Of a DNA stretch of 64,000 nt, positions 738 through 3,095 are shown in pieces. This stretch comes from Henriciella pelagia. Its GTDB lineage: Bacteria; Pseudomonadota; Alphaproteobacteria; Caulobacterales; Hyphomonadaceae. Below the pieces are notes generated by a model that was given only the letters and a program-made list of their open reading frames with translations, did no database searches and was not told the DNA's origin. Position numbers and translations under genes: made by a program. Location of the stretch: NCBI RefSeq assembly GCF_002088945.1, contig NZ_NCSU01000007.1, forward strand, positions 558,001 to 622,000. The letters are read 5' to 3'. The first letter of the stretch is position 1, and each line of letters starts with the position of its first letter.

Positions 738-1856
738 ATGAGCGATATCAGCGGCCATGTGAGCGTCGGGTTCGAGCCTGTGCGCGATGTGTTTGAGGAA
801 AATTTCGAGGCTGGAGAAGAGTTAGGGGCCGGGTTTGCGGTCATCCTGGACGGTGAAGTGATTGTCGACCTTCGCGGCGGCTATACCGATCGCAGAAAGG
901 AGACGGCGTGGAGCGAAAAAACGCTCGTCCCCATCTATTCGACGACCAAGGGCATCAGCGCGCTCGTCCTCGCAAGCGTCATCGGCACACTTGAAAATGG
1001 CTATGACACACCGGTCAGCACTGTTTGGCCGGAATTCGCCGCGGCAGGAAAGCAGGACATCACGATCGGCCAGCTGGTGTCGCACCAGGCCGGTCTGCCG
1101 GGCTTTGCCGATCCGATCGACCCCGAACTCTGGCTGGACCCACCCGCGCTGGCCGCCGCGCTCGCAGATACGCCGCCCATGTGGGAGCCGGGCACGGCGC
1201 ATGGATACCACCCATCGACCTGGGGCTATATGGTGGGAGAAATCTTTGCGCGGATCGCAGAACGGAGTCTCGGGACGGCGCTGCGCGAGGATTTCTGCGA
1301 GCCTTCCGGCATCGATTTCCATATCGGCCTTCCGCCATCGGAACATGGCCGCGTCGCTGAGGTGCAGCGGCCAAAGGAATTGCCGCGCATGGGCGAGATC
1401 AACGCCTACAAGACCGCGGCCTTCCTCACCAAATGGTCGTCGCCGCGCCGCGTCGACAGTTTGTGGAGCGAGCTGGAATTGCCCCACGCCAATGGACACG
1501 GGACAGCGATGTCCGTCGCGCAGCTTTATGGCATCTACGCCAATGGTGGCCGACTTGGCGAAAAGCAGGTCATTCCGGAGGCATCCTTTGGCGCTCTGAC
1601 CCGGCGCCAGACGATGGGTCAGGACCTTGTGTTGCCGTTCGTGACGGAATTTGCCGCCGGGGTGATGCGAAACAATCTCGGCATTTACGGGCCGAATCCG
1701 GACACGCTCGCCCATTCCGGCTGGGGCGGGTCGCTGGCGCTCGGAGATCCGGCGCGGTCGCTGTCGGCCGCTTATGTAATGAACCGCCAGTCCAGCTACC
1801 TGCAGGGCGACCCGCGTGCGCGGCGGCTGGTTGATGCCCTTTATGGATGCCTATAA
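738..1856 (+). CDS. Class C beta-lactamase-related serine hydrolase (EstB-like esterase)
   Basis: 372 residues, the usual length for family VIII esterases of the beta-lactamase fold. The catalytic S-x-x-K is S68-T-T-K71 (IYSTTKGISALVL), followed by the QLVSHQAGLPGF segment typical of the family. Y157 in GYHPSTWG sits where the catalytic Tyr is expected. The C-terminal part carries the HSGWGGS element that replaces the KTG triad. There is no clear signal peptide, so it is probably cytoplasmic. The family hydrolyses short-chain esters or has weak beta-lactam activity; the natural substrate is not deducible. A purine-rich AGGAG lies about 10 bases before the ATG at 738. Confidence 0.88.
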   Translation: MSDISGHVSVGFEPVRDVFEENFEAGEELGAGFAVILDGEVIVDLRGGYTDRRKETAWSEKTLVPIYSTTKGISALVLASVIGTLENGYDTPVSTVWPEFAAAGKQDITIGQLVSHQAGLPGFADPIDPELWLDPPALAAALADTPPMWEPGTAHGYHPSTWGYMVGEIFARIAERSLGTALREDFCEPSGIDFHIGLPPSEHGRVAEVQRPKELPRMGEINAYKTAAFLTKWSSPRRVDSLWSELELPHANGHGTAMSVAQLYGIYANGGRLGEKQVIPEASFGALTRRQTMGQDLVLPFVTEFAAGVMRNNLGIYGPNPDTLAHSGWGGSLALGDPARSLSAAYVMNRQSSYLQGDPRARRLVDALYGCL

Positions 1857-1985
1857 ACCGCCCGTCCTTGACAGTGCGGAGCGGCCTCCTGCCGTTTTGG
1901 TTTATGGAAAATGAATTTCCACACGTTCCAGATGGCCGCTTGTGAAAAGCGAGTCAGGTTGAAAAATTTCGCTTGATACGCGAGC

Positions 1986-2000
1986 TGGCACGCGCTTTGC
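1986..2000 (+). promoter_or_regulatory. Sigma-54 (RpoN) -24/-12 promoter
   Basis: TGGCACGCGCTTTGC matches the sigma-54 consensus TGGCACG-N4-TTGC in every defined position. The invariant GG (1987-1988) and GC (1999-2000) are 10 bases apart, as required. It points rightward into an intergenic stretch with no protein gene on the same strand, since the next gene (rarD) is antisense. The predicted transcript start is near 2012. No enhancer site is obvious in the 130 bases upstream. Confidence 0.65.
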
Positions 2001-2011
2001 TACGATCTGTC

Positions 2012-2090
2012 CGAATATGGAACTCCATCCATTTTCTATGCAGTCTACTTCAACTCCCCGGCCTCGCTGTCCCGAGCGCCGGGGATTTTC
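2012..2090 (+). ncRNA. Candidate sigma-54-dependent small RNA
   Basis: Inferred from position. A complete sigma-54 promoter (1986-2000) is followed about 55 bases later by a strong hairpin and T-run (2056-2090), giving a predicted transcript of about 78 bases. It lies between the convergent esterase and rarD genes. The first 45 bases are AT-richer and unpaired by eye, and the 3' half is the terminator stem, which is the usual architecture of a trans-acting enterobacterial-type small RNA. A 25-codon reading frame from an ATG at 2039 runs through the terminator and has no ribosome binding site, so I do not think it is coding. No known RNA family recognised. Confidence 0.45.
2056..2090 (+). terminator. 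Rho-independent terminator
   Basis: Stem CCCCGGCCTCG pairs with CGAG-C-GCCGGGG around a six-base loop, followed by ATTTTC. It could end the candidate small RNA or read-through from the esterase gene. Confidence 0.75.
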
Positions 2091-2102
2091 TTGTCCAATG
2101 GG

Positions 2103-3011
2103 TCAGCTCAATTGAGCCGCCCTTGCCAGTCGCCGGGCTTTGCGGTCACCCATGACGCTATCCGTGGTGAAGACTGCCAGCGCGGTCCAGATGAAACAGA
2201 ATGCAATGGCCTTGGTCGTGCCGAAAGGCTCGCGAAAGATGAGGACTGCGATCAGGAACTGCAGGGTGGGCGCTATGTACTGCATCATGCCGATGGTCGA
2301 CAGTTTCAGGCGCTTGGCCGCCAGTGCGAACAGGATAAGCGGAACGGCCGTGACCGGTCCGGCGAGTGGCAGCAGCAGGACATCAACCGGACGGTCACCC
2401 ATCCATGACCCCTCCGGTGTCGACTGGAACCAGACAAGCCATATCAGCGCCACCGGAAAGAGCAGGGCGGTTTCGATCGCGAAGCCGATACGGCCATCGA
2501 CACTGACTTTCTTCCGCACTGCTCCATAGGAGGCGAACGTGAAGCAGAGGATCAGGGAGACCCAGGGAAGCCGTCCAAGCTCCCAGGTCAATATACCTAC
2601 GCCGATACAGGCGATCACGATGGCAATCCATTGTGCGGGGCGAAGCTTCTCGGAAAAGAAAAACATGCCGAACAGGACGCTAACCAGCGGGTTTATGAAA
2701 TAGCCGAGGCTGGCCTCCGTCACGCGTTCCTGCGAGACCGCCCAGATATAGACCAGCCAGTTGAGCGCAATGAGCGATGCGGAAAGACCGAGGTAGAAGA
2801 GGCGGCGACGGGTCACCGCAGCCCGGAACTCACGCCAGCGCGATGCAATCGCTATGAAGAGCAGTCCTGTCGGTAAGGCCCAGACGATGCGGTGCGCCAG
2901 CATTTCGCCCGGCGCAATATGGTCAAGCGCCCTGAAATAGAGCGGTAGCGCCCCCCAGAACAGATAGGCAGCGAGCGCACAGAAAAAGCCGAGGCGGAGT
3001 TCAGACGACAT
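2103..3011 (-). CDS. rarD: RarD-type EamA family transporter
   Basis: 302 residues from the chosen start MSSELRLGF; an in-frame ATG at 3047 would add 12 unconserved residues. About ten hydrophobic helices in two EamA halves make it an inner-membrane drug/metabolite superfamily exporter. The RarD signature is clear: GALPLYFRALDHIAPGEMLAHRIVWALP near the N-terminus, LIALNWLVYIWAV, and the GMMQYIAPTLQFLIAV segment near the C-terminus. RarD was named from chloramphenicol resistance, but physiological substrates are not settled. It is downstream of asd on the same strand but separated from it by a terminator at 3096-3125. Confidence 0.9.
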   Translation of the reverse strand: MSSELRLGFFCALAAYLFWGALPLYFRALDHIAPGEMLAHRIVWALPTGLLFIAIASRWREFRAAVTRRRLFYLGLSASLIALNWLVYIWAVSQERVTEASLGYFINPLVSVLFGMFFFSEKLRPAQWIAIVIACIGVGILTWELGRLPWVSLILCFTFASYGAVRKKVSVDGRIGFAIETALLFPVALIWLVWFQSTPEGSWMGDRPVDVLLLPLAGPVTAVPLILFALAAKRLKLSTIGMMQYIAPTLQFLIAVLIFREPFGTTKAIAFCFIWTALAVFTTDSVMGDRKARRLARAAQLS

Positions 3012-3095
3012 GCGAGCGAGATAAGCGGCAACCCCTCCCTTCACCACCCGAAAATTGAGGTGGAATCTGCATGTCAGATATTCTCACAAATCAAG

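Follow-up and report, generated by a model that had tools for sequence, protein, structure and literature searches.

A 64,000-nucleotide stretch of the Henriciella pelagia genome (contig NZ_NCSU01000007.1, positions 558,001 to 622,000; hereafter the window) very probably contains, to judge from its sequence and that of its relatives, a genuine small regulatory RNA gene of about 80 bases that had not been catalogued before. The gene begins with a sigma-54-type −24/−12 promoter element and ends with an intrinsic terminator (Table 1). The best overall explanation, and one in which we place considerable confidence, is a stand-alone non-coding small RNA (sRNA) gene that would be transcribed by sigma-54 RNA polymerase under the control of a bacterial enhancer-binding protein (bEBP) and whose product would act by base pairing. 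A preliminary description of this DNA had proposed a sigma-54-dependent sRNA gene between two convergent genes. Both flanking genes are found as described, and the proposal itself draws support from the conservation of promoter, RNA, and terminator in related genomes.

The promoter element shows the full −24/−12 match and exact GG-N10-GC spacing reported in the preliminary description. Within the 64 kb, TGGCACGNNNNTTGC has a single exact match, which is this element, where 0.05 would be expected from shuffles; the looser pattern TGGCAYN5TTGCW yields 8 matches in the whole genome versus 2 for the reversed control. We compared 55 related loci, a few of which depart from the search pattern at one other position and were placed by hand. 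The GG of the promoter and the TG of TTGC are present in 55/55 loci, the final C in 54/55, and the first T in 53/55, and the 4-base spacer is near random. Bases −11 to −1, between the −12 box and the predicted start, are also free, and conservation restarts at the predicted +1. The combination of a free spacer, a kept GG/GC, and conservation from +1 is, at the level of sequence, the pattern predicted for sigma-54 transcription of a functional RNA. Conservation in relatives had been named as a check, and loss of the motif amid conserved flanks as grounds for rejection. The GG/GC is kept while the flanking sequence, and even the neighboring gene, changes, and the reading as a sigma-54 sRNA therefore withstands a test based on loss of the motif.

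The predicted RNA has a two-hairpin plan. Its terminator half folds with −23.4 kcal/mol (z −4.6) and the whole predicted transcript with −30.4 kcal/mol (z −4.6). The strong hairpin and T-run of the preliminary description are present, the stem being followed by TTTTCTT; the terminator ends about 90 bases past the −12 box and about 80 from the start. The other hairpin, located at the predicted +1, was absent from that description. Of the 10 pairs in the terminator stem, 9 have changed on both sides, and the covariation score is 0.496, compared with 0.167 for shuffled and at most 0.111 for slid controls. Covariation by alignment failed for the 5′ hairpin because of register shifts, and an alignment-free z-score was used instead. 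Relative to dinucleotide shuffles, the 5′ part has a mean z of −1.42 over the 55 loci, 62% of which fall below −1; since the loci are related, the combined value is not a probability. Most of these loci have a hairpin that starts only a few bases from +1, although the sequences forming it are many and different. The loop of this hairpin displays CUCC in several Henriciella species (CCUCCA or ACUCCA hexaloops), and the linker region contains AUGC or GCAUG in 23 of the 55 loci, where shuffles predict 5.7.

A plain DNA search recovers one true relative (G025), that is, 1/28 congeners; two other matches (L003 and L004) were rejected as chance. When the place behind rarD was read, the unit was found beside that gene in 26 of 29 Henriciella genomes and was absent there from three small ones (G007, G023, and G027). 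Covariance model R1 matches over its full length, with E ≤ 1.4e-7, in the very 26 genomes whose sequences went into building it. Weaker full-length R1 matches (L069–L088), considered as extra copies, proved to be gene terminators or other RNAs lacking a −24/−12, so that there is normally one copy per genome. In Hyphomonas oceanitis (L342, G262:C15), two tandem units lie beside rarD at about 86003–86099 and 86291–86384, each with its own −24/−12.

A scan of named Hyphomonas, Henriciella, and other Hyphomonadaceae places the unit next to rarD in nearly all. The upstream gene varies among relatives, being a hydrolase in some and of the LysE type in others, with the unit still adjoining rarD; the −24 box mostly lies 10–30 bp behind this gene. 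The broader model R2, applied order-wide, matches 73 of 93 sampled family genomes at E ≤ 0.002, as well as 15 genomes from other families of the order, and 21 weaker or more distant places were read individually. G118 and G232, which belong to one family and have the unit flanked by dapF and an arsC-like gene, show an exact −24/−12 with an RNA of this plan behind it, as does G297; in G271 and G168, from another family, an exact −24/−12 accompanies a conserved RNA that contains an internal hairpin. These units keep the order of promoter, RNA, and terminator at loci other than rarD. Since two further families have the unit at other loci, its presence cannot be put down to the rarD neighborhood, and it is probably older than its place beside that gene. 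Three R2 matches (L355, L357, and L361) were judged to be chance, and in a class-wide search L362 and L364 are the only possible cases outside the order.

Two side observations concern distribution. Four contigs titled Acidobacteria or Candidatus Sulfopaludibacter (L110, L113, L115, and L119) carry a Hyphomonadaceae-type rarD of about 60% identity, and three of them have the sigma-54 RNA unit with an exact −24/−12; probably these records are misnamed or the bins are mixed. Locus L359 (G260:C11:6661-6794), from a different family of the order, has an exact −24/−12, a hairpin at +1, and two more hairpins further on, possibly representing a longer sigma-54 RNA.

Table 1. Predicted elements of the RNA unit and its flanking genes in the window.
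Feature	Position	Strand	Evidence
Sigma-54 −24/−12 promoter element TGGCACGCGCTTTGC	1986-2000	+	Exact match; GG-N10-GC spacing exact
Predicted small RNA, about 80 nt (82-nt unit)	2012-2092	+	Inferred start lies 12 bases beyond the −12 C; 11 free bases between
5′ hairpin, hexaloop ACUCCA (2022-2027)	2013-2036	+	Minimum free energy (MFE) −7.0, z −2.1 in window
Single-stranded linker UAUGCAGUCUACUUCAAC, candidate pairing region	2037-2054	+	Unpaired in MFE and centroid structures
Intrinsic terminator, stem 2055-2085 then T-tract	2055-2092	+	z −4.6; covariation
Inverted-repeat-like element TTCGCTTGATACGCGAGC, weak candidate regulator site	1968-1985	+	Abuts −24 box; resembles element upstream of hfaA promoters
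LipL/beta-lactamase-like serine hydrolase, upstream neighbor	738-1856	+	NCBIfam best match LipL, 149.6 bits, below cut-off of 650
rarD, downstream convergent neighbor	2103-3047	−	TIGR00688, 219.9 bits, cut-off 130.15

RpoN is present in the window genome (G000, PF04552), together with four clear bEBPs: PspF, a TacA-like response regulator, NtrC, and NtrX, which exceeds its NCBIfam cut-off. The GAFTGA motif, required for action on sigma-54, has been lost from both NtrC and NtrX, which leaves only PspF and the TacA-like regulator able to activate sigma-54. The TacA-like protein, encoded at G000:C6 (about 100468-101916), has GAFTGA and matches FlbD far below the cut-off (364.6 versus 750); it is called TacA-like by elimination only. 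NtrC and NtrX of Caulobacter likewise lack GAFTGA, and the other two bEBPs there are FlbD and TacA (PMC10274813). Henriciella NtrC and NtrX without GAFTGA were recorded at L201 (4340-5698 and 7967-9355). Of 61 genomes, G007 alone has no rpoN; pspA, the two activators with GAFTGA, and the RNA are missing from it as well, and it keeps ntrC and ntrX.

A clue to the activator comes from the hfaA promoters, in which an element of the TTCCCC-N5-GGCGAAA type is found at a constant 23–24 bp upstream of the −24 box in 17/17 genomes and is a possible binding site of the TacA-like bEBP. Searched for as TTCSCC-N4-7-GGCGAAA, a similar element occurs in roughly half of the RNA promoters of Henriciella at 0–1 bp from the −24 box, where its mean match score peaks (z 4.0), and at a Tad-pilus promoter at 1 bp from that box. 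The peak is not general outside Henriciella, and for the window alone p = 0.28. The element at the RNA promoters favors the TacA-like regulator without settling the matter. The hfaA promoter itself, a conserved sigma-54 promoter before a holdfast-like hfaA/csgG operon, was recorded at L242–L259, with the window genome copy at G000:C15, about 188907-188922. A further sigma-54-like promoter (L206, G000:C12:10859-10874) stands before the gene for a RovC-type DNA-binding protein, with a paralogue just upstream.

Activation by PspF, which would make the RNA part of the envelope-stress (Psp) response, is the strongest alternative, though we regard it as unlikely. PspF of the window genome has GAFTGA, scores 457.7 bits with TIGR02974, over the cut-off, and is encoded at G000:C14, about 823963-825006, divergently from pspA; G007 is without both psp and the RNA. 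Because pspA is present in all sampled family genomes except G007 and G011, co-occurrence is uninformative on the activator apart from G007. G011 has the RNA and no detected pspA, in an assembly that is 87% complete. The pspA promoters share AT-rich repeats upstream, of the GTCAA..TAGCTAAAT type, and in most cases have TTGA at −12, whereas the RNA promoters, by inspection, are without the repeats and have TTGC.

Nitrogen control through NtrC, a suggestion that sigma-54 promoters invite in being often NtrC targets, is improbable. The preliminary description had pointed to nitrogen limitation as a condition for detecting the RNA, and this part of it finds no support: GAFTGA is gone from both NtrC and NtrX, and no NtrC-type site (GCAC-N5-9-GTGC) lies within 250 bases upstream at the window locus, the 55 loci having only two, at least 150 bases upstream. 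In favor of nitrogen control, the RNA does bear some likeness to NsiR1 (RF02399), but the window scores 21.7 bits against a gathering cut-off of 39, and NsiR1 was rejected as its family. The weak full-length model match covers only the linker and terminator, leaving the 5′ hairpin of the Henriciella RNA without a counterpart, and NsiR1 is a cyanobacterial family.

It is about as improbable that the terminator serves only the upstream gene, the serine hydrolase or LysE-type transporter, and that the sigma-54-like element is incidental, with no RNA gene present. In most of the loci read, the upstream gene runs in the same direction and stops a short way ahead of the −24 box, but an incidental motif would not be expected to be kept in every locus, with exact spacing, while the upstream gene changes from a hydrolase to a LysE-type or some other gene, nor would conservation be expected to begin at the predicted +1 or tandem copies in one genome each to have their own −24/−12. 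The least credible explanation is a small-protein gene in place of a non-coding RNA: an ATG is often found near +26, on account of the AUGC linker motif, and a frame of 32 aa starts at window position 2017, but there is no conserved reading frame over the 55 loci. In about one quarter of them the first 60 bases contain no ATG; in the remainder, frame lengths vary between 4 and 97 aa, and the frames continue across the terminator stem and yield no peptide common across species groups. The ATG frames inside the window unit are all non-conserved, in line with the original statement that no protein gene lies in between.

A precedent for the proposed sigma-54 sRNA gene exists in the Qrr RNAs of Vibrio, short trans-type sRNAs in which a −24/−12 acts directly at +1, followed by a 5′ hairpin, a linker, and a terminator, under the response-regulator bEBP LuxO. 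The architecture is the same in the Henriciella RNA, but there is no sequence relation, and the latter differs in being single-copy as a rule and in its activator and lineage; membership was rejected on the basis of no Rfam Qrr match (E-value mode). The CrcZ, CrcY, and CrcX RNAs of Pseudomonas are far longer RNAs that sequester Hfq-Crc by means of repeated A-rich motifs; the 80-nt Henriciella RNA shows nothing similar. Their likeness to it lies in being RpoN-dependent non-coding RNAs under an NtrC-family response regulator, CbrB (PMC8657755). EcpR1 of Sinorhizobium is an alphaproteobacterial sRNA for which a sigma-54-type promoter has been proposed; in the Henriciella case, conservation argues that the sigma-54 element is the promoter.

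A search of Rfam, suggested in the preliminary description, returned no family over threshold for this RNA. MmgR/alphaR8, which includes SisA–D of Caulobacter, is comparable as an alphaproteobacterial sRNA of about 77 nt with a 5′ hairpin, a C/U-rich linker, and a terminator. It was rejected as a family assignment. With the corresponding Rfam model (suhB, RF00519) the best-scoring of the sigma-54 RNA units, L343, reaches 25.3 bits against a cut-off of 41 and the window gives no match; for the alphaR8 10-mer UUUCCUCCCU, the window has at best 4 mismatches, and the 55 loci do no better than shuffles. The Caulobacter alphaR8 siblings share no promoter motif (PMC12559287). Separate putative alphaR8/MmgR-type sRNAs were observed in Henriciella at L076 (about 2300, +), L080 (about 2620, +), and L088 (−, offset about 2599), all with the exact 10-mer TTTCCTCCCT in CGATTGTGCGTTTCCTCCCTCC followed by a terminator; the Rfam suhB model misses them at E ≤ 2. 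As a sigma-54-driven sRNA gene, the RNA predicted here is ordinary in kind and new as a family, and no report of it was found in the openly searchable literature.

In the proposed sequence of events, sigma-54 RNA polymerase would transcribe from the element at 1986-2000, starting near 2012 and stopping at the gene's own terminator near 2092. As sigma-54 needs an activator, the RNA would be made only when the TacA-like regulator, which we prefer, or PspF is active. The 5′ hairpin may protect the RNA end, and the CUCC loop and linker could pair with mRNA start regions, probably with Hfq, to alter translation. On this architecture the RNA is most likely a trans-acting, base-pairing sRNA.

Several results weigh against this proposal. 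The RNA promoters did not yield a definite activator site: the pspA-type repeats were not seen there by eye, and the hfaA-like element is present at only part of the RNA loci, being suggestive there and strong at hfaA. Two of the small genomes, G023 and G027, keep rpoN and both activators, with the RNA absent at the rarD place. The exact 10-mer complements AGGATGGAGG and ATGATGGAGA were sought in three genomes each, six in all. Matches to AGGATGGAGG fall inside genes or antisense, with no shared start region, and the same is true, among the matches listed, for ATGATGGAGA.

Sigma-54-driven sRNAs such as Qrr, CrcZ, and GlmY/GlmZ are well known in gammaproteobacteria, and in the literature searched we found none shown in Caulobacterales. 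The RNA predicted here is short, normally single-copy, and present in most genomes of a mostly marine family, and since its activator is narrowed to two proteins, its regulation could be tested with two deletions. It also illustrates how an sRNA can be traced by promoter and architecture where sequence search fails, from a single congener to nearly all Henriciella genomes by synteny and model. The TacA-like/sigma-54 regulon of this genome seems to include the holdfast-like (hfaA-csgG) and Tad-pilus promoters, and it is possible, though we advance this tentatively, that the RNA belongs to an old, fast-evolving Caulobacterales sRNA family that forms the post-transcriptional arm of this regulon. 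If so, surface attachment or cell development would be tied to a small RNA whose architecture, and not its sequence, is conserved.
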